Source: Daphnia pulex (Eukaryota; Arthropoda; Branchiopoda; Diplostraca; Daphniidae). Taken from it: a stretch of DNA of 64,000 bases. This document shows positions 11,674-54,782 of this stretch, in pieces (the stretch's first letter is position 1; each line of letters opens with the position of its first letter). The stretch lies in NCBI RefSeq assembly GCF_021134715.1, contig NC_060019.1, positions 11,236,001 through 11,300,000 of the forward strand. Direction: 5' to 3'. Made by a program: the position numbers and the translations under genes. The notes under the pieces are model-generated. The model had not been told where the DNA came from. It worked only from the letters and a program-made list of their open reading frames with translations, and did not search any database.

Positions 11674-12477
11674 GAATATACAAAACGTCATCCTATTCTT
11701 GTAGTTGTCGTTATCTTTTGTACCTTTTCACAACATATTTAGAATTAAAAACATTTAAATGAAATCATAAATAAGTGTGGATGAACTTCACTAGCTAGGC
11801 ATGTCTAACCCCACATCCTTCCCTCACAAGCCACACAAGTCCGTATTACTTTTGGAGAGAGCGATGGCCCCCTTTTTTTAAGCAAATTTCCATGTTTTCT
11901 GTACTCCACATGACTGCCAATGGCTTGTTGAACCAGCTCTAAAAATGTTGATGGAAAATTGTTACGCCTTGTCGGTCTTGATCAATATATGATTGTGAAT
12001 AGATCTGCCAATCTTCTTTATGTTTTATTCTGATCGCGGGAAGTCAATTGAATATTGTAAGGTTTTCATTTAAAATTTAACATTTCCCTTTTTGAAGCCT
12101 TAGAATTGGGTGTTTTGAGTTTTTTTCAACTGTGGTTTAGACTGTATTAATCAAATAATTTGGAAAGTTCTAATGGTTAATTTGAAGTAAAAAATTAATA
12201 AAGACGAAATATAATTACAAAAAATTAAAATAGCTTATATTTAATAAAAAATAGCCCTTCAGGTAAACCTTGTTAAAACAAAAAACAGGTATCTGAAAAT
12301 TCAAATTCATCCCCATTTCAAATTGAACATGATTGCATGTCTAGTTAACAACGTTACCGATAGATGTCTTTCTTACAGGTTTCTGCAGGGGCCAAGAGAT
12401 GCCTCCTTCTCAAATGGGAAAATGGTGGGAAAAAATGGTGGAAAACAACAAAAGATAAAAGTGTGCTTTGTGTAAAC
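11674..12477. other. 3' region of the kinase gene and spacer before the giant inverted repeat
   Basis: This AT-rich stretch follows the kinase stop codon. An AATAAA-type signal lies near 12,195, so the 3' UTR could run to about 12.2 kb. No coding gene is supported. The left border of the giant inverted repeat is taken at about 12,478, where similarity to the far side (25,888) begins. Confidence 0.5.
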
Positions 12478-12720
12478 GTGGATTCATTAATTTTCTTAAA
12501 ACTGTGTCATTAGGTGAGGTAAACCAATTAACTAGGAAGAGTATCAGACATATTTATTTCTGTATTTCGTAGCCAGGGGATGGGTGGAAAAAGTTTATCA
12601 GACAGAATGATTGTCGTTCGCAGTCGTTCGGCTGGATCTGTGTCAATTGGAATTCAATGGATTCGTTAACTTATTAAGTAACTAGAGCATAGAGTGCCAG
12701 AGATAATCGAAATCTCTTTG

Positions 12721-13015
12721 TATTTCCCCATGACTGCTACCAGACCATTACAATTTAGATTTCATAAAACATAGGTATTCTTGCTTATGAACCAAAGGAT
12801 CTTTTCTGAATATTGCAATTTTGGTGGTGTACCCTGCAACAGCATGTTTTTATGGCTGTTTTTACTTCGGTTTAGAAGGCAACCCAGCTAAGAGTTGGGT
12901 AGAGTTTTATTTCTCATAGGTAAATTTGTGTAAATTTGTAAATACCGTAGATGATTTCCTTGTCCCATTTCCACTTAAGAGTTTCAGTGACATTAAGAGT
13001 GTGAAGTGAACCACC
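12721..13015 (+). repeat. ~295-bp subrepeat, copy A
   Basis: This is the first of four related copies. It contains GACTGCTACCAGACCATTAC, a run reading GCAACCCAGCTAAGA, and ends near GAAGTGAACCACC. The partner in the same arm lies inverted at 18,504-18,797, so each palindrome arm is itself bounded by inverted repeats. Confidence 0.8.
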
Positions 13016-13369
13016 GGCAATGTGTATGTACATTTACCAGATCTGTACATGAAAACATATGTACATGCGTACAGATATATAATAGGAAATAATTTTATTT
13101 GTTTAATCCATATAGCCAATAATCATTTTATTCTTTGCAACAGATGCGCAAACACAAATGTTATGAATTTCGTTTTGGGGTCAATGGAGTTGGCGCTGGT
13201 TGCCGTTACTGGCGTTTTGCGACGTCTTGCTATCAGTTTGGAAGAAAAGCTCTGGATTCTAGGGAATCCTCCGAGGTAACCTTGCAGTCAACATACATGT
13301 GAGGAGTTTTCGATTCGTTAAAATTTGTGCATATCTTCGTTGTGTTTTTTGCATGCAAATCAACCTGCA

Positions 13370-13890
13370 GACAGGTCGGCCAGTTTGTCCCGACACGATG
13401 TCCTTCTCACTTGAAGGTCACGAGAAACATTACGTAAAACTGGCATGCGGTAGTGTAGAGGTTGGGTGAGAATGACACGTGTTTCATCATTATCAAAGAA
13501 GGTACAATAGCCGCAAGGATAAGCTATTTGGTTTTCTTTTTGATATTGGATGTTGTAGACCCATCCCCAGCCACGTCAACCTGCAGTCTAAGGAAAGGCC
13601 AGTTTTCCTTCAATCGAAGGTCACGGATGTCATTACATAAAACTTGTCATGCAGTGGTGTAGAGGTTGGGTGAGAATGAGACGTGTTACATCCATTTGGT
13701 TTTCTTTTTGATATTGGATGTTGTAGACCCATCCCCAGCAACGTCAACCTGCAGAAGGAAAGGCCAGTTTTCCTTCAATCGAAGGTCACGGATGTCATTA
13801 CATAAAACTTGTCATGCAGTGGTGTAGAGGTTGGGTGAGAACGGGACGTTTTGTATCATTATCAAGAAGGTAGAATAACCGCAAGGCTTG
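13370..13890 (+). repeat. Tandem ~165-200-bp repeats upstream of the decayed gene cluster
   Basis: Two well-matched units (about 13,462-13,663 and 13,664-13,828) start GTTGGGTGAGAATG and contain GATATTGGATGTTGTAGACC and GGTCACGGATGTCATTAC. A diverged partial unit lies before them and a truncated unit after. The array ends just before the TATA box at 13,914, so it occupies the promoter-proximal region. A mirrored copy occupies about 24,467-24,987. Confidence 0.8.
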
Positions 13891-13913
13891 AGAGGAGGGG
13901 TGAGAAAAAGTCG

Positions 13914-16272
13914 TATAAAAGGCGAGAGAAATGTCGACAGGTATCAGTCGAGCGAGTATCTCCGACACGGTAATAACTGCTGTGTACTATTTGCCATCAG
14001 CTGCATTCTTCATCGTATTATCAGTTCTCAATCATGGGTAAATTTTCTGTTGTTATTTGGAGTTATGTATAAATTTCTATTTTGTTTTCTCTTTGTTAAC
14101 ATGCTAGATATTTTTGCATATTAATTGTTAAAATAATTATTGTTTAGTCGTACATAAGGGCAAGGATAAGTCGACAGGGATTAGTCGAGTGAGCATCTCC
14201 GACACGGTAACAGCAACTGCAGTGCACCATGTGTCACCAACTGCATTCTTCGTCGAATTGCTAGTTTAAATCATGGGTAAAAATGTTTACATGGAAATGT
14301 GAATCGACTTATTATTTATTAACATGCAAGTTATAATGTTCAAATGATAATTTGTCTAGCAAACTATGGCCTCATGCTGCGGTTTTGTGTTGCAGCGTTG
14401 ATGGCTGGGTCGGCCACTGGTGTATCGATGTTTCCTGGGTATGGCGGATAACAAATTGCAACGCCGCCACCTTACTACACAACATACGACACGACCAGTT
14501 GCTACACCGAGGCCCCCAAGTACTGAACCAAGGCTCCAGATTATTATACCACAACTTATGCTGCCCCGAACTACTTACACCGAATCCCCGCAGTATTATT
14601 CTTCCCCTAGCTACACTACAAAAGGGTCGAGTACTACGTCGAGGCTCCCAAGTACTACATCGCCACGGCACCGGAGTACAAAAACGGTCGAACACTACAC
14701 AGAAGCAATCATGGGTAAATATGTTTTTATTTTTTCATGGAAATGTGAATCAACTCTATTATTTTTCTAATTGCAAATATGTCAGTTATTATTGCATACT
14801 AATGTTTAAATCATTTGTATAGTAACTATGGCGTTGTGCTACTGTGAGTGTTGTAACGTTGATGGCTGGATCAACCACTGGTGTGCCGATTTCTCCTGGG
14901 TATGGCGGGCATGAATAATCCGTAGCAACCGGTTATTGCACTGGGCCCCCAAATACTACACCACCAAGGGTCCGGAGTATTACACCACAACTTGTACTGC
15001 CCCGATGTTACTACGCAGAAGTTCCGAAGTATTTTTCTTCCCCGAGTTTCACTACCTTCACCACGCCGATTACTAAACAACAACGTCAACAACTACTTAC
15101 CATACGAAGGTCTCCAGTACTACGCCACAATGGCTCCTGAGTAATAAACTTCGACCTACGATGTTCCAGCTAACTATAATAATGCCCCCATGTATTATTC
15201 TGTTCCCAGCTACTACACCGAGTATCTAACTTATCACACCACTGAAGCGCCCAAGTACTGCACTACAACCTACGTTGATCCAGGTTAAACCACGAAGGCA
15301 GCGGAGTACTACACCACGAAGGCAGCGGAGTGCTACACCACGAAGGCAGCGGAGTGCTACACCACGAAGGCAGCGGAGTGCTACACCACGAAGGCAGCGG
15401 AGTGCTACACCACGAAGGCAGCGGAGTGCTACACCACGAAGGCAGCGGAGTGCTACACCACGAAGGCAGCGGAGTGCTACACCACGAAGGCAGCGGAGTG
15501 CTACACCACGAAGGCAGCGGAGTGCTACACCACGAAGGCAGCGGAGTGCTACACCACGAAGGCAGCGGAGTGCTACACCACGAAGGCAGCGGAGTGCTAC
15601 ACCACGAAGGCAGCGGAGTGCTACACCACGAAGGCAGCGGAGTGCTACACCACGAAGGCAGCGGAGTGCTACACCACGAAGGCAGCGGAGTGCTACACCA
15701 CGAAGGCAGCGGAGTGCTACACCACGAAGGCAGCGGAGTGCTACACCACGAAGGCAGCGGAGTGCTACACCACGAAGGCAGCGGAGTGCTACACCACGAA
15801 GGCAGCGGAGTGCTACACCACGAAGGCAGCGGAGTGCTACACCACGAAGGCAGCGGAGTGCTACACCACGAAGGCAGCGGAGTGCTACACCACGAAGGCA
15901 GCGGAGTGCTACACCACGAAGGCAGCGGAGTGCTACACCACGAAGGCAGCGGAGTGCTACACCACGAAGGCAGCGGAGTGCTACACCACGAAGGCAGCGG
16001 AGTGCTACACCACGAAGGCAGCGGAGTGCTACACCACGAAGGCAGCGGAGTGCTACACCACGAAGGCAGCGGAGTGCTACACCACGAAGGCAGCGGAGTG
16101 CTACACCACGAAGGCAGCGGAGTACTACACCAGTACTTACGCTAATACCATTTACTACAACGAAGCTCCGCACGCACGACTCTCCCTGAGTTACTACACC
16201 ACTAAGGCAGCCGAATATTAAACCACAAACTACGATTCCGCAAGTTTCTACAAGGAAATTTCTAAATACTAG
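13914..16272 (+). pseudogene. Decayed cluster of YTTKAAE-repeat secreted protein genes, left arm
   Basis: A TATAAAA box (13,914) is followed by two similar first exons of about 105 bp, ending ATGG|GTAA near 14,038 and 14,278. Joining ATGG to the exon at 14,360 gives a plausible signal peptide, MANYGLMLRFCVAALMAGSA, then a TAA stop at 14,449. Past the stop, fragments such as PPYYTTYDTTSCYTEAPKY continue, interrupted by a TGA and a frameshift. A third ATGG|GTAA junction near 14,710 and an exon at 14,822 repeat the pattern with a one-base deletion. A TAA (15,286-15,288) stops the frame just before the 24-bp array. After the array the frame meets TAA and then TAG (16,270-16,272). The intact family would be a secreted Tyr/Thr-rich structural protein. 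I infer multiple inactivated, partly fused paralogues. Confidence 0.65.
15289..16128 (+). repeat. 24-bp x 35 tandem array encoding TTKAAECY, left arm
   Basis: Exactly 840 bp divides into 35 units of 24 bp. In the frame of the decayed gene each unit reads Thr-Thr-Lys-Ala-Ala-Glu-Cys-Tyr. The first and last units read Tyr-Tyr (TACTAC); the 33 in between read Cys-Tyr (TGCTAC) and are otherwise identical. Such homogeneity points to recent expansion by unequal exchange or gene conversion. The unit length is a multiple of three, so every frame stays in register, and five of six frames are open. That explains the long spurious open frames seen here. Confidence 0.95.
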
Positions 16273-16838
16273 AGCCGAAATTTCTATGTGACGTTATTTA
16301 TATTTGTCGGTTATTTTTATGCTCATTGGTCACTGAGAATTAATTATTGATCTTAAAAGAGAATATATAAATTTTTAATACGGCCAATACGGGTAATTCT
16401 TTTGTAATACTTTTGTTAGTAACTTCAAGTTTGTCAACTTCGCGTCAAATGTATATTGGTGTTGGATTTCTTCAAGGCCGGTATGCTGAATTGTGAATTG
16501 TTTGTTTTATATTTTACAGGTGACTACTGCCTTATTCATACGGACATGTTCTTGTGGTTCGACGATGATATTTCAAGAATTAGTTACGAAAGACAATTGT
16601 AACTGTAGATTTTTTCAAATCTTATAAATAATGTGGAAGTGGCTGACCTTTGTAAAAATGAAATACTTTGAAGTTGAGAGAAATATATTGATACAATTCA
16701 TAAACAAAACTTGGTGTAAATTAGAAACAATGAACAAAATACTTATAAAAAGAATTGTGTTATATTGTCCCACCTCCTCCCACAATTCCTCCACATTTTA
16801 CAGTCACATACATACATACACATATACATACACATAAG

Positions 16839-17114
16839 TTAACCCATTGGCTGCCACGCCATACAACCCGTAGGTTGCTCTCTACTAATCTACGCGCCAC
16901 GTCTGAAGGATCCATGACCAAGTGGGACTTGCCATTGTTGACAAGTCCGTGCTGAAAAGGGGGAACTATGGTGCATTGCCTGAAACAGGCGCCTTGCGGC
17001 AAATTTTGGGCTTGGCGACTCTCCGACCCCGCGGCTTGTAAACCACGAGACCGAAAAGCGCGGCCCGTGCTAAGGAGCTAGGGGAAAACAAAGGCGTGGC
17101 AGACAATGGGTTAA
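16839..17114. mobile_element. TTAA-flanked piggyBac-like MITE, left arm
   Basis: A 276-bp GC-rich block starts TTAACCCATTGGCTGCCACG and ends with the reverse complement, GGCGTGGCAGACAATGGG followed by TTAA. The TTAA target duplication next to CCC...GGG termini and terminal inverted repeats of about 18 bp are hallmarks of piggyBac-type elements. It has no coding capacity, so it would depend on a transposase in trans. Confidence 0.75.
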
Positions 17115-17378
17115 CTAACACTAACACAAACATATTACCAAAAACAAATGATGATCCACGCTGACATTTTGGAGATACCGGCGACGTTTTAGTGTCCATC
17201 TTCTCGACGTTTCCTCTCATTACCTGATTAAAGAGAAAACAATTCTTATTAAGTGACATGCCAATTAAAGTAACATAATAGTCACATAATACATATAGGT
17301 TCATTGTTCTGGTTTTTTTGCTCAAAACTTTAAGGGCGCGCTTTAAATCTACCTAACAATATTGAGAACTGTTCACAG

Positions 17379-17768
17379 AACAAAGCTCACATGCTAGTCT
17401 TCAAAAAAAAATTCCGGAAGTAGACCGGAAGTAACCACAGCGCCTCAACCATTGAGCTGTCGTCAAATTAAACCACATATTCGTGATCTCCATGAAATTT
17501 GGGGTCGATTAGGTGTGTTTTAAACGAAATCCAAAATTTGGCCAAAATCGAGAATTTTCCTGAACTATAGTTCAGGAAAATTTTCGAAACCGGAAGTACG
17601 AATACGTAAAAATGATAACATGAACTTTACCACAAATTTAACGAGGATCACGAATATGTGGTTCTTTTGCTCCTCGAATGAATATTTACTGAACTACTGA
17701 CTGAAATGAGCAAACCGGAAGTAAAAAAAAAAAACTCATTATCAAAAATCTAACAAGTGAGCTTTGTT
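17379..17768. mobile_element. Short inverted-repeat element, 390 bp, left arm
   Basis: Bounded by AACAAAGCTCAC and its inverse GTGAGCTTTGTT. The inside is rich in short inverted motifs: several CCGGAAGTA boxes, the palindrome CCTGAACTATAGTTCAGG, and paired ATTCGTGAT blocks. It looks like a non-autonomous fold-back or MITE-type element. I cannot assign a superfamily. Confidence 0.5.
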
Positions 17769-17803
17769 GGAGGTATAGTTACCGACAGTTTCCACGAAAT
17801 ATT

Positions 17804-18352
17804 TCAACAAAATAACTGCCAATAAACGTTTAAAGAGATGTGCAAAGTAACAGAAACTGACGGTTTTGACAGCTTAAAATTATCGAAAAGCCATCTAGCG
17901 TTAGAAAAAAGAAACGTCCAAGTAAAACATCCGTTAGCGCGTAAGAAGGGCCTGATTTTGGAAACTATTACACAGACAGAGTCTAACGCAACTAGACTAT
18001 TAGTAGATAACCTACGAAAATAAGTCAATTGCTGGGTACCTGGGCATAATCCCGTGGTGATGACTGCAGGGGTGTAACAGCGGACGGAAGCGATCACTGA
18101 AGTGGTCCAGAAACTCGCCAAGTCGCCAGTGAAGTAAAACCAATTGTGTTTAGAAGCAGTGAAACTAGACGAGCGTGCGTCGCGAAGATAAGGATGGAGA
18201 AGAAAGTTGATGGAAGTCCCTCTTCCGTCATGGTCAGCATTGGCACAAGAATCTCCGTGCCAGGACCACACGATTCCATAAAGAAACTGCGTGCTCTGTA
18301 AAATAAAATGTTTTACATTAATAAAAATATAACAAAGAATAAAGCATTTCAA
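17804..18352 (-). other. Unassigned open frames in the palindrome arm
   Basis: A minus-strand frame of 182 codons and a plus-strand frame of 61 codons (17,838-18,023) overlap here. Both are copied without change in the right arm (19,918-20,466). A TTTTATTTTACAG acceptor precedes an exon-like stretch starting AGCACGCAG on the minus strand near 18,300. I do not recognise either product and see no conserved motif. Identity of the two copies reflects arm identity and is not evidence of coding. Confidence 0.25.
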
Positions 18353-18503
18353 TCTTTACCTAGTTTAAGAAGCACACTGATTGTTCATGATGAAAAAACC
18401 GTAAAAATGGAATTCACTGCAACCAACAGCATTACTCCACATGTTGAGATCAATTTCTGCATGCCCAAGAAAGTGTCATGAAGTATTGCAGTAGCATGTG
18501 ATA

Positions 18504-18797
18504 GGTGGTTCAGTTCACACTCTTCATGTCACTGAAACTCTAAGTGGAAATGGGACAAGGAAATTCTCTACGTTATTTACAAATTTACACAAATTTACCT
18601 ATGAGAAATAAAACTGTACCCATGTCTTAGCTGGGTTGCCTTCTAAACAGAAGTAAAAAGCCATAACAACAAACATGCTGTTGCAGGGTACGCCACCAAA
18701 ATTGCGACATTCTGAAAAAGATCCTATGGTTCAAGAATACCTATGTTACATGAAAATCTGAATTGTAATGGTCTGGTAGCAGTAATTGGAAAATACC
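18504..18797 (-). repeat. ~295-bp subrepeat, copy B (inverted)
   Basis: Reverse-complement relative of 12,721-13,015, with an estimated 85-90% identity by eye. With copy A it brackets the decayed gene cluster and short mobile elements of the left arm, like long terminal inverted repeats of a unit of about 6.1 kb. Confidence 0.8.
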
Positions 18798-19472
18798 TTA
18801 TCTCGGCAAATTTGTATTCCACTATATGTGTGCTTCAAACATGAGTTTTAGGCTTTTGACTGCATGAGGATCTAATGGATGGAAATTGACTCAGCGCTAA
18901 GTCAACTTGTTGGAATGACTGACAGGACAGTATGCATCTAGAATTTGGAGAAATAAGTTGGTACAATATAAAAATAAGGAAACTAGGATAAACTCAAGAT
19001 AAACCTACATAAGATACGAAGTTCAATTTGGTATTTGATGGACAGGAATATTAAAGTATTAATTAGCTACAATTTGTTTCGCCTTATTCGCCTCGTTTCA
19101 CGATGTAACAACAACAAAGGCGACACTAGCGACATCTAGTAATGGATTTTGAATCCTAAGTAGGTAACACGATGTGGCTAGTGTCGCCTTTGTTGTTGTT
19201 ACAGCGTGAAACGAGGCTTATATTCCTGTGATTTCATATACTAAATTGAATTTCGTAACTTATGTAGGTTTATCTTGGCATAGTTTATTCCTTATTTGTA
19301 TACTGTACCAACTTATTTCTCCAAATTCTAGATGCATACTGTCCTGTCAGTCATTCCAACAAGTTGACTTAGCGCTGAGTCAATTTCCATCGGATTAGAC
19401 CCTCATGCAGTCAAAAGCCTAAAACTCATGTTTGAAGCCCACATGTAGTGGAATACAAATTTGCCGAGATAA

Positions 19473-19766
19473 GGTATTTTCCAATTACTGCTACCAGACC
19501 ATTACAATTCAGATTTTCATGTAACATAGGTATTCTTGAACCATAGGATCTTTTTCAGAATGTCGCAATTTTGGTGGCGTACCCTGCAACAGCATGTTTG
19601 TTGTTATGGCTTTTTACTTCTGTTTAGAAGGCAACCCAGCTAAGACATAGGTACAGTTTTATTTCTCATAGGTAAATTTGTGTAAATTTGTAAATAACGT
19701 AGAGAATTTCCTTGTCCCATTTCCACTTAGAGTTTCAGTGACATGAAGAGTGTGAACTGAACCACC
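19473..19766 (+). repeat. ~295-bp subrepeat, copy C
   Basis: Mirror of copy B in the right arm and nearly identical to it. It has the same orientation as copy A. Confidence 0.8.
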
Positions 19767-20501
19767 TATCACATGCTACTGCAATACTTCATGACACTTT
19801 CTTGGGCATGCAGAAATTGATCTCAACATGTGGAGTAATGCTGTTGGTTGCAGTGAATTCCATTTTTACGGTTTTTTCATCATGAACAATCAGTGTGCTT
19901 CTTAAACTAGGTAAAGATTGAAATGCTTTATTCTTTGTTATATTTTTATTAATGTAAAACATTTTATTTTACAGAGCACGCAGTTTCTTTATGGAATCGT
20001 GTGGTCCTGGCACGGAGATTCTTGTGCCAATGCTGACCATGACGGAAGAGGGACTTCCATCAACTTTCTTCTCCATCCTTATCTTCGCGACGCACGCTCG
20101 TCTAGTTTCACTGCTTCTAAACACAATTGGTTTTACTTCACTGGCGACTTGGCGAGTTTCTGGACCACTTCAGTGATCGCTTCCGTCCGCTGTTACACCC
20201 CTGCAGTCATCACCACGGGATTATGCCCAGGTACCCAGCAATTGACTTATTTTCGTAGGTTATCTACTAATAGTCTAGTTGCGTTAGACTCTGTCTGTGT
20301 AATAGTTTCCAAAATCAGGCCCTTCTTACGCGCTAACGGATGTTTTACTTGGACGTTTCTTTTTTCTAACGCTAGATGGCTTTTCGATAATTTTAAGCTG
20401 TCAAAACCGTCAGTTTCTGTTACTTTGCACATCTCTTTAAACGTTTATTGGCAGTTATTTTGTTGAAATATTTCGTGGAAACTGTCGGTAACTATACCTC
20501 C

Positions 20502-20953
20502 AACAAAGCTCACTTGTTAGATTTTTGATAATGAGTTTTTTTTTTTTTACTTCCGGTTTGCTCATTTCAGTCAGTAGTTCAGTAAATATTCATTCGAGGA
20601 GCAAAAGAACCACATATTCGTGATCCTCGTTAAATTTGTGGTAAAGTTCATGTTATCATTTTTACGTATTCGTACTTCCGGTTTCGAAAATTTTCCTGAA
20701 CTATAGTTCAGGATTATCATTTTTACGTATTCGTACTTCCGGTTTCGAAAATTTTCCTGAACTATAGTTCAGGAAAATTCTCGATTTTGGCCAAATTTTG
20801 GATTTCGTTTAAAACACACCTAATCGACCCCAAATTTCATGGAGATCACGAATATGTGGTTTAATTTGACGACAGCTCAATGGTTGAGGCGCTGTGGTTA
20901 CTTCCGGTCTACTTCCGGAATTTTTTTTTGAAGACTAGCATGTGAGCTTTGTT
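20502..20953. mobile_element. Short inverted-repeat element, 452 bp, right arm
   Basis: Mirror of 17,379-17,768, with a 62-bp tandem duplication that includes ATTTTTACGTATTCGTACTT and CCTGAACTATAGTTCAGG. The duplication is absent from the left arm, so it arose after the arms formed or was lost from one of them. Confidence 0.55.
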
Positions 20954-21217
20954 CTGTGAACAGTTCTCAATATTGTTAGGTAGATTTAAAGCGCGCCCTT
21001 AAAGTTTTGAGCAAAAAAACCAGAACAATGAACCTATATGTATTATGTGACTATTATGTTACTTTAATTGGCATGTCACTTAATAAGAATTGTTTTCTCT
21101 TTAATCAGGTAATGAGAGGAAACGTCGAGAAGATGGACACTAAAACGTCGCCGGTATCTCCAAAATGTCAGCGTGGATCATCATTTGTTTTTGGTAATAT
21201 GTTTGTGTTAGTGTTAG

Positions 21218-21493
21218 TTAACCCATTGTCTGCCACGCCTTTGTTTTCCCCTAGCTCCTTAGCACGGGCCGCGCTTTTCGGTCTCGTGGTTTACAAGCCG
21301 CGGGGTCGGAGAGTCGCCAAGCCCAAAATTTGCCGCAAGGCGCCTGTTTCAGGCAATGCACCATAGTTCCCCCTTTTCAGCACGGACTTGTCAACAATGG
21401 CAAGTCCCACTTGGTCATGGATCCTTCAGACGTGGCGCGTAGATTAGTAGAGAGCAACCTACGGGTTGTATGGCGTGGCAGCCAATGGGTTAA
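21218..21493. mobile_element. TTAA-flanked piggyBac-like MITE, right arm
   Basis: Mirror copy of 16,839-17,114, also 276 bp between and including TTAA repeats. It was evidently carried along when the arm was duplicated. Confidence 0.75.
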
Positions 21494-22059
21494 CTTATGT
21501 GTATGTATATGTGTATGTATGTATGTGACTGTAAAATGTGGAGGAATTGTGGGAGGAGGTGGGACAATATAACACAATTCTTTTTATAAGTATTTTGTTC
21601 ATTGTTTCTAATTTACACCAAGTTTTGTTTATGAATTGTATCAATATATTTCTCTCAACTTCAAAGTATTTCATTTTTACAAAGGTCAGCCACTTCCACA
21701 TTATTTATAAGATTTGAAAAAATCTACAGTTACAATTGTCTTTCGTAACTAATTCTTGAAATATCATCGTCGAACCACAAGAACATGTCCGTATGAATAA
21801 GGCAGTAGTCACCTGTAAAATATAAAACAAACAATTCACAATTCAGCATACCGGCCTTGAAGAAATCCAACACCAATATACATTTGACGCGAAGTTGACA
21901 AACTTGAAGTTACTAACAAAAGTATTACAAAAGAATTACCCGTATTGGCCGTATTAAAAATTTATATATTCTCTTTTAAGATCAATAATTAATTCTCAGT
22001 GACCAATGAGCATAAAAATAACCGACAAATATAAATAACGTCACATAGAAATTTCGGCT

Positions 22060-24443
22060 CTAGTATTTAGAAATTTCCTTGTAGAAACTTGCGGAATCGT
22101 AGTTTGTGGTTTAATATTCGGCTGCCTTAGTGGTGTAGTAACTCAGGGAGAGTCGTGCGTGCGGAGCTTCGTTGTAGTAAATGGTATTAGCGTAAGTACT
22201 GGTGTAGCACTCCGCTGCCTTCGTGGTGTAGCACTCCGCTGCCTTCGTGGTGTAGCACTCCGCTGCCTTCGTGGTGTAGCACTCCGCTGCCTTCGTGGTG
22301 TAGCACTCCGCTGCCTTCGTGGTGTAGCACTCCGCTGCCTTCGTGGTGTAGCACTCCGCTGCCTTCGTGGTGTAGCACTCCGCTGCCTTCGTGGTGTAGC
22401 ACTCCGCTGCCTTCGTGGTGTAGCACTCCGCTGCCTTCGTGGTGTAGCACTCCGCTGCCTTCGTGGTGTAGCACTCCGCTGCCTTCGTGGTGTAGCACTC
22501 CGCTGCCTTCGTGGTGTAGCACTCCGCTGCCTTCGTGGTGTAGCACTCCGCTGCCTTCGTGGTGTAGCACTCCGCTGCCTTCGTGGTGTAGCACTCCGCT
22601 GCCTTCGTGGTGTAGCACTCCGCTGCCTTCGTGGTGTAGCACTCCGCTGCCTTCGTGGTGTAGCACTCCGCTGCCTTCGTGGTGTAGCACTCCGCTGCCT
22701 TCGTGGTGTAGCACTCCGCTGCCTTCGTGGTGTAGCACTCCGCTGCCTTCGTGGTGTAGCACTCCGCTGCCTTCGTGGTGTAGCACTCCGCTGCCTTCGT
22801 GGTGTAGCACTCCGCTGCCTTCGTGGTGTAGCACTCCGCTGCCTTCGTGGTGTAGCACTCCGCTGCCTTCGTGGTGTAGCACTCCGCTGCCTTCGTGGTG
22901 TAGCACTCCGCTGCCTTCGTGGTGTAGCACTCCGCTGCCTTCGTGGTGTAGCACTCCGCTGCCTTCGTGGTGTAGCACTCCGCTGCCTTCGTGGTGTAGC
23001 ACTCCGCTGCCTTCGTGGTGTAGCACTCCGCTGCCTTCGTGGTGTAGTACTCCGCTGCCTTCGTGGTTTAACCTGGATCAACGTAGGTTGTAGTGCAGTA
23101 CTTGGGCGCTTCAGTGGTGTGATAAGTTAGATACTCGGTGTAGTAGCTGGGAACAGAATAATACATGGGGGCATTATTATAGTTAGCTGGAACATCGTAG
23201 GTCGAAGTTTATTACTCAGGAGCCATTGTGGCGTAGTACTGGAGACCTTCGTATGGTAAGTAGTTGTTGACGTTGTTGTTTAGTAATCGGCGTGGTGAAG
23301 GTAGTGAAACTCGGGGAAGAAAAATACTTCGGAACTTCTGCGTAGTAACATCGGGGCAGTACAAGTTGTGGTGTAATACTCCGGACCCTTGGTGGTGTAG
23401 TATTTGGGGGCCCAGTGCAATAACCGGTTGCTACGGATTATTCATGCCCGCCATACCCAGGAGAAATCGGCACACCAGTGGTTGATCCAGCCATCAACGT
23501 TACAACACTCACAGTAGCACAACGCCATAGTTACTATACAAATGATTTAAACATTAGTATGCAATAATAACTGACATATTTGCAATTAGAAAAATAATAG
23601 AGTTGATTCACATTTCCATGAAAAAATAAAAACATATTTACCCATGATTGCTTCTGTGTAGTGTTCGACCGTTTTTGTACTCCGGTGCCGTGGCGATGTA
23701 GTACTTGGGAGCCTCGACGTAGTACTCGACCCTTTTGTAGTGTAGCTAGGGGAAGAATAATACTGCGGGGATTCGGTGTAAGTAGTTCGGGGCAGCATAA
23801 GTTGTGGTATAATAATCTGGAGCCTTGGTTCAGTACTTGGGGGCCTCGGTGTAGCAACTGGTCGTGTCGTATGTTGTGTAGTAAGGTGGCGGCGTTGCAA
23901 TTTGTTATCCGCCATACCCAGGAAACATCGATACACCAGTGGCCGACCCAGCCATCAACGCTGCAACACAAAACCGCAGCATGAGGCCATAGTTTGCTAG
24001 ACAAATTATCATTTGAACATTATAACTTGCATGTTAATAAATAATAAGTCGATTCACATTTCCATGTAAACATTTTTACCCATGATTTAAACTAGCAATT
24101 CGACGAAGAATGCAGTTGGTGACACATGGTGCACTGCAGTTGCTGTTACCGTGTCGGAGATGCTCACTCGACTAATCCCTGTCGACTTATCCTTGCCCTT
24201 ATGTACGACTAAACAATAATTATTTTAACAATTAATATGCAAAAATATCTAGCATGTTAACAAAGAGAAAACAAAATAGAAATTTATACATAACTCCAAA
24301 TAACAACAGAAAATTTACCCATGATTGAGAACTGATAATACGATGAAGAATGCAGCTGATGGCAAATAGTACACAGCAGTTATTACCGTGTCGGAGATAC
24401 TCGCTCGACTGATACCTGTCGACATTTCTCTCGCCTTTTATAC
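22060..24443 (-). pseudogene. Decayed cluster of YTTKAAE-repeat secreted protein genes, right arm
   Basis: Mirror of the left-arm cluster, read on the minus strand from the TATA box at 24,437-24,443 to the TAG at 22,060-22,062. It carries the same duplicated first exons, signal peptide exon with early stop, frameshifts and stops flanking the array. The lesions are shared, so the cluster was already broken before the arms duplicated, or the arms have been kept alike by conversion since. Confidence 0.65.
22203..23066 (-). repeat. 24-bp x 36 tandem array encoding TTKAAECY, right arm
   Basis: 864 bp, exactly 36 units, one more than the left arm. Only the 5'-most unit on the minus strand keeps Tyr-Tyr; the 3'-most reads Cys-Tyr, unlike the left arm, where both end units are Tyr-Tyr. 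The arms have therefore diverged in both copy number and unit type. Confidence 0.95.
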
Positions 24444-24466
24444 GACTTTTTCTCACCCCTCCTCTC

Positions 24467-24987
24467 AAGCCTTGCGGTTATTCTACCTTCTTGATAATGA
24501 TACAAAACGTCCCGTTCTCACCCAACCTCTACACCACTGCATGACAAGTTTTATGTAATGACATCCGTGACCTTCGATTGAAGGAAAACTGGCCTTTCCT
24601 TCTGCAGGTTGACGTTGCTGGGGATGGGTCTACAACATCCAATATCAAAAAGAAAACCAAATGGATGTAACACGTCTCATTCTCACCCAACCTCTACACC
24701 ACTGCATGACAAGTTTTATGTAATGACATCCGTGACCTTCGATTGAAGGAAAACTGGCCTTTCCTTAGACTGCAGGTTGACGTGGCTGGGGATGGGTCTA
24801 CAACATCCAATATCAAAAAGAAAACCAAATAGCTTATCCTTGCGGCTATTGTACCTTCTTTGATAATGATGAAACACGTGTCATTCTCACCCAACCTCTA
24901 CACTACCGCATGCCAGTTTTACGTAATGTTTCTCGTGACCTTCAAGTGAGAAGGACATCGTGTCGGGACAAACTGGCCGACCTGTCT
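24467..24987 (-). repeat. Tandem ~165-200-bp repeats, right-arm copy
   Basis: Mirror image of 13,370-13,890 in the right palindrome arm, with the same unit order and apparent sequence. Confidence 0.8.
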
Positions 24988-25340
24988 GCAGGTTGATTTG
25001 CATGCAAAAAACACAACGAAGATATGCACAAATTTTAACGAATCGAAAACTCCTCACATGTATGTTGACTGCAAGGTTACCTCGGAGGATTCCCTAGAAT
25101 CCAGAGCTTTTCTTCCAAACTGATAGCAAGACGTCGCAAAACGCCAGTAACGGCAACCAGCGCCAACTCCATTGACCCCAAAACGAAATTCATAACATTT
25201 GTGTTTGCGCATCTGTTGCAAAGAATAAAATGATTATTGGCTATATGGATTAAACAAATAAAATTATTTCCTATTATATATCTGTACGCATGTACATATG
25301 TTTTCATGTACAGATCTGGTAAATGTACATACACATTGCC

Positions 25341-25635
25341 GGTGGTTCACTTCACACTCTTAATGTCACTGAAACTCTTAAGTGGAAATGGGGCAAGGAA
25401 ATCATCTACGGTATTTACAAATTTACACAAATTTACCTATGAGAAATAAAACTCTACCCAACTCTTAGCTGGGTTGCCTTCTAAACCGAAGTAAAAACAG
25501 CCATAAAAACATGCTGTTGCAGGGTACACCACCAAAATTGCAATATTCAGAAAAGATCCTTTGGTTCATAAGCAAGAATACCTATGTTTTATGAAATCTA
25601 AATTGTAATGGTCTGGTAGCAGTCATGGGGAAATA
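25341..25635 (-). repeat. ~295-bp subrepeat, copy D (inverted)
   Basis: Mirror of copy A in the right arm and nearly identical to it. It closes the inner inverted-repeat unit of the right arm. Confidence 0.8.
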
Positions 25636-25888
25636 CAAAGAGATTTCGATTATCTCTGGCACTCTATGCTCTAGTTACTTAATAAGTTAACGAATCCATT
25701 GAATTCCAATTGACACAGATCCAGCCGAACCTGCCGAACGACTGCGAACGACAATCATTCTGTCTGATAAACTTTTTCCACCCATCCCCTGGCTAAGAAA
25801 TACAGAAATAAATATGTCTGATACTCTTCATAGTTAATTGGTTTACCTCACCTAATGACACAGTTTTAAGAAAATTAATGAATCCATG

Positions 25889-26723
25889 TCCACGGTTGTT
25901 TGTAACGGCAATGCAGGAATCACCTGCCTCAGATATTATAGCTTATGATAATCAGGGGTTGCTAAAACTCACTTAATATTACCTGTGGAAGATGTTGAAT
26001 GAGGATTAAAAGCTATCAATTTCAACTTTTTTCTCCGAAGAATCTGAAACATGTAACCCAAAACTGGATCGTCTTCCATTAATTTAACACCAGCATTGGC
26101 ATCTTCACTGTCATTCCGTCAACACTGATATTTTGATTCCTGATCTTAAGTGTAGTCCATGCCAATTCCTCATGTAGACTGGAGGTTGGAATTCATTTTT
26201 ATTTTAGGCCAACATTGTGTCTGGCACTTCACATAGATAGGGTCACTGAATGTTTGAGTTGCTTCATAAAGTACTTGTTCTAAATAGCTGGATTCTTCAC
26301 GAGCAGAGGTAACTCTAACAGTCCCACTGTACTGAAAAGTTTAGACTTGCTGTGTTGCATTGGAGCTACGTGGTGGAGAGAATTTGACCTAATAAAAACA
26401 AACAGAAGAAATCTTCTTGAATCACTATTTATTTAGCAAGGGAAATTGAAAATCCAATGCAGCCAAACAATCCATGCATGCCTCACTTCTTACACCAAAT
26501 ATGTGATCCACTGTGATCTAGGATCTAGGTATGTACATGGGCTTTTCAAACATTTCCTTTGACTGACTTGAATTTACTTTGTTTCAACCACGTTATGAGA
26601 TAACGTACAACGTACGTTAACTCATGGATAACACAGGTAAGGCAATCGAGAAACAAAAGCAAACTATTGCGTGAACGGACTCATTTGCTTACCAAAATCA
26701 AATAATTCAAAACAATGGTAAAA
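25889..26723. other. Spacer between the giant palindrome and the fold-back element
   Basis: No supportable gene or RNA. Short exon-like stretches can be imagined on either strand, but none holds a frame with recognisable content. A small palindrome (AACGTAC / GTACGTT) lies near 26,605-26,620. Confidence 0.4.
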
Positions 26724-28717
26724 TCTATTGCACTCCGGAGTCCGGAGCGCTCTAGTGTCAAAAGTGGCTATTGCACTCCGGAGTCCGGAGTCCTCTAGCG
26801 TCAAAAGTGGCTATTGCACTCCGGAATGGAAATATGTAGTACTTTCATTTGGCGACCGATGGCATTCTGTTTCTGTGTTTTGAAATTTGAATGGTTTAGA
26901 TTTGAATTCTTTGGAAATTCAAATAAAATGTATTTATAACAATCAAATATATTTGAATATCACTAATAAATAAAAATAGTCAGTGTATAAAAAGAACTTT
27001 TATTTCGTTATCGTTAACTTAGCTAGAGTACAATGTCCAACATTGAATCAGTACCTTAAAATTCAAATTGTAAATATAGTTAAGTGTCTTGCAACAGGAA
27101 TAAAGTAGAATTTATAAAAATTTTAATTCAGGGTGATATTTCTTATTAACCATTTCAATTTCTCGCTCTATTTGCTCAGTGTAAGGATTTATACACGTTA
27201 TAAACGCACATAGTGAGTCACCCTTTGTCGCCCCTTACTTGCCTGAAAGTCGAGCCGGAGTTCTCAGAACGGGGCTTCGAGGGGTTCTTAATCTTTGTGA
27301 CCTTTAAACGCATCGACCAGCAACTCACTATTTCTGCTGATTGATTCACACGTAACGTGGGATTCAGCTATATTATACAGAGATCATTAAATTCAAAGTA
27401 ATAATTTAGATTGTTAAACACGCTATAAACACACGACATAGTGAGTCACCCTCTGTCGCCCCCCTACTTGCCTGAAGGTCGAGCCGGAGTTCTCAGAACG
27501 GGGCTTCGAGGGGTTCTTTGTGACCTTCAAACGCATTGACCAGCAACTCACTATTTCTGCTGATTGACACGTAACGTGTGATTCAGCTGATTTCACGCTA
27601 TAAACCATGCAATGCCCGTGTCTCTTATTCCAATAAACTAACAGCTAAACACGTCTTTCATATCTTGAAACAAAACAATACAAAACTAAGTTAACATGCA
27701 ATTGCAGTTTACTTTATTATAGTGAGAATATCAAAAGACATTTTAACTGAATTGTGAGTGCGAAAAAATACTTGGTATTTTCGTGTTCAGTTTCACTCGG
27801 TGCTTTGTCATCACATGAATGAACTGACAATGAAAAAGTAATTGATTTAAGAGGGGAAAGAATTGGCACATGGTGCGGCGTCAATCAAAGATCCTTTAAG
27901 AGCGGAATATGGAAGCGCCTTGTCCTTTGATGATGGGTTGCTTTAGGTTCCAACGCCGCGGAGATAATCATAAACAAAGTTAACCACTCCTCTTTTTGAC
28001 TACCAGTATTTTCCTATTTTGTAACATCTATCTCCCCTCGACGATGACGAATGGTTCTGTCACGAATGTAAAAAATAAATACCTTATTATGTAGTCTCAT
28101 GTATACACACCCAGAATTGAACTTATTATGTGAAATATATTGTGTTAAATTTGAGTAGAAAGTAAACCTACTGTTTTTGTTTATACACACTCAACTTCTT
28201 TCATTATTAAATGATATCGAGGAACATTCTTCTTATGTGATATAAAGTCATGATCAGGTCGTAAACGTAAAGAAATAGCGAAAACCCCTAATCCTGCAAA
28301 CCTTAAAACTTTTATAGATGAAATAAGTAAAATCTCACTTTTCAAACATGATACATTTTTTTTCAAAATGTCAAACACTAATTTCTTGAAGCCATCAGGT
28401 TTGTTTTTCATTTGGGGAAATCTCAAAAACTCATCACATGCTGTTGACCTGTTGTACGATATTGTAACAAAGGTGAAACCACAGATCAGTGCATAACTCC
28501 CTCTTCTTTCACACTATAATTGAAGCTTGAATGAAAGACAGACTCTGAACTCAGGCTGAATGGTATTTATGTTAAACACAGAATCAGTCGTTATTTGCCA
28601 TTCGTCGCCATAAATTTCCGGAGTGCAATAGCCACTTTTGACGCTAGAGGACTCCGGACTCCGGATTGCAATAGCCACTTATGACACTAGAGCGCTCCGG
28701 ACCCCGGAGTGCAATAG
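26724..28717. mobile_element. ~2-kb fold-back element with doubled terminal inverted repeats
   Basis: Each end consists of two tandem units of about 50 bp built from CTATTGCACTCCGGAGTCCG and a TCTAGYGTCAAAAGTGG tail. The left pair lies at about 26,724-26,828 and the inverted right pair at about 28,615-28,717. The interior is AT-rich and non-coding apart from two GC-rich direct repeats (27,196-27,605). This layout fits a non-autonomous fold-back DNA transposon. No transposase remnant is visible and I did not find a clear target-site duplication. Confidence 0.65.
27196..27605 (+). repeat. Direct repeat (two ~180-bp copies) inside the fold-back element
   Basis: The copies lie at about 27,196-27,370 and 27,420-27,605. 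Both run from ATAAAC...ATAGTGAGTCACC through AGTCGAGCCGGAGTTCTCAG-like sequence (GTCGAGCCGGAGTTCTCAGA in full match) and GGGGCTTCGAGGGGTTCTT to ACTCACTATTTCTGCTGATT. Each copy has inverted ends (ATAGTGAGT with ACTCACTAT) and so could fold on itself. They are GC-rich against an AT-rich surround. Confidence 0.75.
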
Positions 28718-54184: not shown

Positions 54185-54460
54185 TATAGAGGTTTTTCCA
54201 TTTGGTTCGTGTAAGTAGAGGGAAAAGTCGTGCGGCTAGTCGACTAGTGCGCACCATGGCGGGGGATAGCCGAAACTTGCTGCAGACTTTGCTTGATCCA
54301 AACGATAGTCACCGTAAGGCCATGTACTGTAACCTGTCAGGCTGTCAGCAGCAAAAGTGAAACCTGTTTTTTTTCTTAAGTGTTTAAAATGACAAAAGGT
54401 TTTTGTTTCATATGTTCAACTTATGAAACAAAAATAGATCGCCGAAGTTTTTTCAAAGTG
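54185..54460 (+). repeat. Left arm of a perfect 276-bp inverted repeat
   Basis: The arm runs from TATAGAGGTTTTTCCATTTG to TTCAAAGTG and is matched, base for base as far as I can check, by the reverse complement at 54,507-54,782. The loop is 46 bp (54,461-54,506). A transcript through it would form one long perfect hairpin. No coding content. Confidence 0.9.
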
Positions 54461-54506
54461 AAATGAGTTCTTTCTCAATTGAATTACTGTTAATGTTGCA
54501 TTCTGG

Positions 54507-54782
54507 CACTTTGAAAAAACTTCGGCGATCTATTTTTGTTTCATAAGTTGAACATATGAAACAAAAACCTTTTGTCATTTTAAACACTTAAGAAAAAAAA
54601 CAGGTTTCACTTTTGCTGCTGACAGCCTGACAGGTTACAGTACATGGCCTTACGGTGACTATCGTTTGGATCAAGCAAAGTCTGCAGCAAGTTTCGGCTA
54701 TCCCCCGCCATGGTGCGCACTAGTCGACTAGCCGCACGACTTTTCCCTCTACTTACACGAACCAAATGGAAAAACCTCTATA
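54507..54782 (-). repeat. Right arm of the perfect 276-bp inverted repeat
   Basis: Reverse complement of 54,185-54,460 with equal length and no mismatch seen. Flanking sequence outside the arms is unrelated and I see no terminal target-site duplication. Confidence 0.9.

Follow-up and report, generated by a model that had tools for sequence, protein, structure and literature searches.

The inverted arms of palindromes on the mammalian X and Y chromosomes are more than 99% identical through intrachromosomal gene conversion, and parts of arm, spacer and flank can swap roles between species, as described in the available part of PMC8981503. In the human Y palindrome P8, an arm end was duplicated together with its flank, in inverted orientation, onto the other side, an event that is attributed to NAHR or BIR in the available part of PMC6790999. 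Gene-bearing palindromes have also been described in the parthenogenetic animals Adineta vaga and Folsomia candida, where they are discussed along with gene conversion; the portion of this survey at hand indicates that D. pulex was not testable there, its annotation being lacking (PMC7953838). Discussion of palindromes that persist through arm-to-arm conversion has mostly centred on sex chromosomes or asexual animals.

The palindrome described here lies in a window of 64,000 nucleotides from Daphnia pulex (C3:11236001-11300000), whose coordinates are used throughout for this locus. The genome searched amounts to 133,188,837 bases in 13 contigs, which we take to be the 12 chromosomes and the mitochondrion of the KAP4 assembly. 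D. pulex is not known to have sex chromosomes. This genome contains dozens of inverted gene pairs. One of them, the C3 palindrome, is a known kind of structure, probably an arm-converting palindrome, in a new setting. A search of the literature on Daphnia by titles and beginnings of abstracts found no such palindromes, which is not proof of their absence.

Like the X and Y palindromes of mammals, as far as these are covered by the available part of PMC8981503, the Daphnia palindromes have near-identical inverted arms that appear to be kept by conversion. Unlike them, they are small and numerous, derive from one shared unit and are dispersed over several chromosomes; furthermore, stops follow the gene start at five of the six loci where one was found, and the centre is the diverged part. 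As in P8, copied flank would enlarge the palindrome, but P8 is, in the text available, a structural variant among people (PMC6790999), whereas in a single Daphnia genome several loci have flank in each of their arms, and two loci show opposite states of one flank. The palindromes of Adineta and Folsomia, unlike the Daphnia family, were found as collinear gene blocks, and the accessible part of PMC7953838 mentions no shared unit. The reading favoured here, with a probability of about 0.7, is that the members of the Daphnia family are long-lived palindromes rewritten by arm-to-arm copying that at times runs into the flank, and that their centre is ancestral at the C3 locus and at no fewer than three loci of contig C7.

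A first-pass annotation of the window had proposed a palindrome of about 13.4 kb with a spacer of about 34 bp. This structure is real: the arms extend over 12479-19136 and, inverted, 19171-25886 on both sides of the loop, and the homology between them ends at 12478/25887 (Table 1). Arms of 6.6 kb that are 98-99% alike are far beyond chance. In the main arm, the identity exceeds 99% next to a short spacer, as in the palindromes of sex chromosomes, while the centre is less alike, so that the initial picture has to be corrected there. The inverted repeats of about 295 bp seen at both ends of each arm are also genuine (about 88% identical). The expression "palindrome of palindromes" used for the block is apt in part, these repeats being the shortened terminal inverted repeats of the unit that forms the arm. 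Satellite arrays were said to be mirrored, and both arms indeed carry an array of 24-base units, but the two lengths differ by one unit. The "perfect-looking gene copies" deserve this adjective for their likeness to one another only, both being interrupted by in-frame stops. Within the arrays, the units are near-identical and open in several frames. No Rfam match above the gathering score was obtained for positions 12000-26500 of the window.

Table 1. Features of the C3 palindrome, in window coordinates.
Feature	Position	Strand	Remark
Outermost left arm, locus-specific flank inside the palindrome	12479..12719	+	2 genome matches, its own two arms
Outer terminal inverted repeat, left unit (shortened, ~295 bp)	12720..13015	+	inverted match to 18504-18796
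Repeat-protein gene copy (pseudogene), toward the centre	13909..16700 (limits approximate)	+	start-like ATGGCTGG, then in-frame stops
24-base array, ~35 units, TTKAAECY-type repeats	15289..16132	+	
Inner terminal inverted repeat copy, left unit	18504..18796	+	
Diverged innermost left arm	18966..19136	+	with the 36-base segment
Central loop, 34 bases	19137..19170	.	
Diverged innermost right arm	19171..19303	-	without the 36-base segment; clusters with an arm each of L002, L003 and L004 (C7)
Inner terminal inverted repeat copy, right unit	19474..19766	-	
61-base tandem duplication	20645..20774	-	right arm only
24-base array, right arm, ~36 units	22200..23067	-	
Mirror repeat-protein gene copy (pseudogene)	21632..24447 (limits approximate)	-	mirrored from left arm
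Outer terminal inverted repeat, right unit	25341..25636	-	
Outermost right arm	25637..25886	-	second copy of the local flank

The two C3 arms differ by indels of 9 bases (at 12625), 24 bases (one satellite unit, at 15308), 61 bases (the tandem duplication of the right arm) and 1 base (at 17722 and 18876). A 36-base segment (19054-19089) is found in the left arm only, inside its diverged innermost part (~18966-19136). Mismatches number 30 in 446 aligned bases at less than 500 bases from the centre, 1 in 1,000 between 500 and 1500 bases, 2 in 4,940 from 1500 bases out to the unit edge (main arm) and 2 in 243 in the outermost flank. An assembly fold-back artefact typically takes this shape, with a short loop between near-identical arms. 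At C3, such an artefact is hardly credible and is the least probable of the explanations considered here, since it would not produce arms that differ by these indels and by a diverged centre, and since the same architecture recurs at other loci and on other contigs, with arm-specific markers common to four loci.

Searches using the centre, the outer arm, the middle arm and a gene product as queries revealed inverted pairs on at least 9 contigs (C1, C2, C3 and C7-C12) and matches to the unit on at least 11, with unrelated flanks among the loci compared. The gene copies found number at least 103 (merged from 134 rows, out of 168 matches, some repeat rows being left out). Neighbouring copies separated by 15 kb or less form at least 34 pairs: 29 convergent, 2 divergent and 3 tandem, with equal scores (to 0.5 bit) in 19 of the 29 convergent ones. 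The probability calculated for this convergence (2e-13) is a guide only, as it assumes independent pairs at a chance of 1/4 while one C7 copy belongs to two pairs. At least eight more inverted pairs on C10, plus the C3 pair, lie outside this count. The palindromes read over their entire length are seven in number (C3, C9, C2, C12, C11 and two on C7, hereafter C7a and C7b) and measure 11-16 kb. Two more were read in part: at C9:8.731 Mb, the arms are 98.8% identical over 6.0 kb, and at C1:4.95 Mb, which represents a remoter branch of the gene family and has no C3-type centre, they are 99.5% identical over 4.1 kb, reaching the ends of the stretch. Altogether, 15 of the 22 loci examined contain inverted repeats; no inverted match was detected in the remaining seven, i.e., L013-L018 (examined from their outer ends) and L025. 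A centre of the C3 kind is present at seven more loci (L002-L007 and L010; L008 repeats L005 and L009 repeats C9).

Each arm consists of one unit of about 6.5 kb, and the two copies face inward. Each carries one member of a repeat-protein gene family, read toward the centre, whose product contains TTKAAEYY-type repeats; three peptide strings of this repeat were not found in the literature searched. At C3, the start-like sequence lies at 14401 (and also at 14862) and is soon followed by in-frame stops, which are the same in both arms. Stops common to both arms are also encountered at C2, C12, C7a and C7b, whereas at C9 the reading of the two arms diverges after the gene start; at C11, no gene start was found. 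With stops in both arms at five of the six loci that have a start (seven examined), the arms probably hold no functional genes. It could nevertheless be imagined that selection keeps the palindromes, either because conversion guards functional gene pairs or because convergent copies yield regulatory double-stranded RNA. Although the convergent layout prevails in the family and some gene copies elsewhere in the genome have long open frames devoid of stops, such a role seems quite improbable in view of the shared stops, of the discordant C9 arms and of the missing start at C11.

Among the matches listed, 12 rows start at query 321-322 (= 12720-12721) and only C3's own arms match upstream of query 321, which places the outer edge of the unit at 12720. 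The inner edge lies near 19161-19170, and several C7 copies share sequence past it. A solo unit of C7 (L051) has terminal inverted repeats of about 635-640 bp that are 85% alike. These repeats, together with the presence of the unit on so many contigs between unrelated flanks, recall a foldback or long-terminal-inverted-repeat transposable element that would have been inserted ready-made. However, no target-site duplication was visible by eye at L051, and the 14 unit ends that were aligned are ragged. Furthermore, the arms extend beyond the unit into the flank proper to each locus, the sequence shared by C7 copies oversteps the unit edge, and no Pfam match above the cut-off was obtained for six open frames of the arm (one weak match, E 0.46). 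Ready-made insertion is therefore very improbable, only the assembly artefact being more so.

The comparison of loci supports arm-to-arm copying. In the outer (13290-14460) and middle (16250-17540) segments, the arms of one locus are sisters in all seven palindromes, with 99.6-100% identity within a locus versus 79.0-94.5% between loci (5.5-21% divergence). Each arm is thus closer to its own partner than to the homologous arms of other loci, as expected from concerted evolution of the arms. In all seven palindromes, the two arms mismatch at 2.7-10.2% of positions over the innermost 500 bases. C9 (up to 15%) and, with a gap, C2 (6.6%) keep a high mismatch as far as 1.5 kb from the centre. Farther out, the values approach zero, except at the outermost ends of C3, C7a and C7b. 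The flank is more diverged than the arm at C3 (the 2 of 243 above) and C7a (8 of 504), and the outermost kilobase of C7b is far more diverged between arms. This suggests that not every copying event got to the end.

The first-pass annotation had proposed that such a structure usually needs gene conversion or a recent origin to persist. Persistence by conversion is supported by the near-identity of the outer and middle arms at seven loci out of seven, set against the divergence between these loci. Recent origin can be retained for the latest copying at C3 only, as the C3 centre shares markers with three C7 loci. Conversion is deduced here from paralogous loci within one assembly, in which the likeness of the arms could be exaggerated by polishing. 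According to the formula c = 2u/d, taken from the available part of PMC8981503, and with u = 2.30e-9 to 4.53e-9, the conversion rate needed would be c = 1.3e-6 to 4.0e-5 per generation; the value of u = 5.69e-9 given in PMC11754708 would raise c slightly. The needed rate resembles that of allelic conversion in Daphnia, for which the available part of PMC12926508 reports a value of 2.62e-5 for D. obtusa and quotes one of 6.47e-6 for D. pulex.

At some loci, the innermost 331 bases group across loci. Three C7 loci each contribute one arm to the cluster of the C3 right arm (support 71); their other arms cluster with the C3 left arm, as do L006_R and L009_L (support 84). The support of the right-type group is modest (71 in one tree, 68/90 in another). 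AU tests on the innermost part reject arm sisterhood for C3 (p 0.028), L002 (1.6e-4), L003 (5e-8) and L004 (0.014), i.e., for four of the eight loci with both arms, which were chosen after the first tree; L006_L is not in the tree. Furthermore, C3_R, L002_R and L003_L have a deletion junction in common; L004_L also lacks the 36-base segment, with a junction that did not match the pattern. Such a grouping across loci implies that a palindrome with two marked inner arms predates the parting of the four loci. In these trees and markers, a centre older than this parting is shown for C3, L002, L003 and L004 only. In the tree of the seven palindromes, the innermost arms are sisters at C2, C11, C12, C7b and C9, only one arm having been found for C7a. 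In the later tree of the innermost segment, the arms of C9 (as L009) are not sisters, and in the segment 17640-18500 the right arm of C9 is placed with L007 and L010 arms, not with its own partner.

The outermost DNA of the arms is specific to the locus at C3 and C2, and nearly so at C9. Whereas the C3 stretch matches nothing but its own two arms, the outermost 1.7 kb of the C2 arms match themselves and one 56-base stretch, and the outermost 2 kb of the C9 arms match themselves and partial relatives on C9, C12 and C2. The ends of the palindromes are younger and local. Two palindromes, at C9:8.482 and C9:8.731 Mb, have one flank in common. The first palindrome (C9:8.482 Mb) has this flank on its left, uninterrupted in the outward direction like L062, a copy of the C9 flank that lacks the unit (78-93% in pieces); a second copy of about 2.0 kb of the flank stands at the right end. 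In the second palindrome (C9:8.731 Mb), the shared flank is on the right (94%), but about 1.46 kb adjoining the unit is missing; about 3.8 kb of other non-unit DNA is present on both sides of the palindrome, and the copied arm joins the native flank via a run of T. In this one pair of loci, the flank would have been the donor at C9:8.482 and would have been overwritten at C9:8.731, where the ~3.8 kb would represent the other flank of that locus. Both states of the C9 flank are explained by copying past the unit end, not by a ready-made insert. L062 and L060 show a weak 75% match suggestive of an empty site, which was dropped because of its wrong orientation.

The local flank found in both arms, the end-joining-like junction of C9:8.731 and the innermost 331 bases that are sisters at C2, C11, C12 and C7b could also result from a separate recent inverted duplication at each locus, without continuing conversion. 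This is unlikely, though less so than the three other alternatives: all seven loci would each need such an event within ~25,000 to 780,000 generations, though their units differ by 5.5-21%, and the older inner-arm markers shared between C3 and the three C7 loci would not be accounted for.

Under arm-to-arm copying, a break or a stalled fork in one arm would be repaired by copying the other arm. The copying, which may start in the inner arm and involve break-induced replication or template-switch synthesis, would run outward, sometimes past the unit end into the flank. One side (arm and flank) would thereby become a copy of the other side, abutting the DNA farther out. The escape of the centre might be due to poor pairing near the turn or to the loss of perfectly symmetric centres. 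In yeast, inverted repeats located near a break steer repair into BIR, according to the available part of PMC6103520. A more ambitious version, to which we give somewhat less than an even chance, would make these palindromes self-rewriting loci. An ancestral, hairpin-prone centre would repeatedly start outward copying without a fixed end, one side and its flank being overwritten by the other, and a large gene family would evolve mainly in this way in this genome, at a rate comparable to ordinary clonal conversion. If so, arms would be homogenised and extended into unique DNA, one flank would be erased, and broken as well as good gene copies would be spread.

With so many replicates of one palindromic unit in a model animal whose reproduction is cyclically clonal, the start and reach of conversion, the escape of the centre and the growth of arms become countable, and such counts could be obtained from mutation-accumulation lines and sister-species genomes. 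The C9 comparison already offers two opposite states of one sequence.

Other repeated sequences were observed in the window and around some units. An almost fully self-inverted element of 598 bases (54185-54782), with no match to the unit, is present in at least 16 full-length copies in the genome, counting itself, of which 13 reach 98% or more; it looks like a foldback-type MITE that was recently active. Just to the right of the palindrome, two inverted arrays of a 43-base repeat (26725-26826 and 28616-28717) are 97% alike. An open frame of 253 residues on the minus strand adjoins a C10 unit (L024:4317-5075) and seems to resemble a retroelement polyprotein. Lastly, L051 and L052 (C7:11.316 and 11.376 Mb) are inverted units located about 54 kb apart that are still about 96.5% identical, which suggests that exchange may also act over long spacers.
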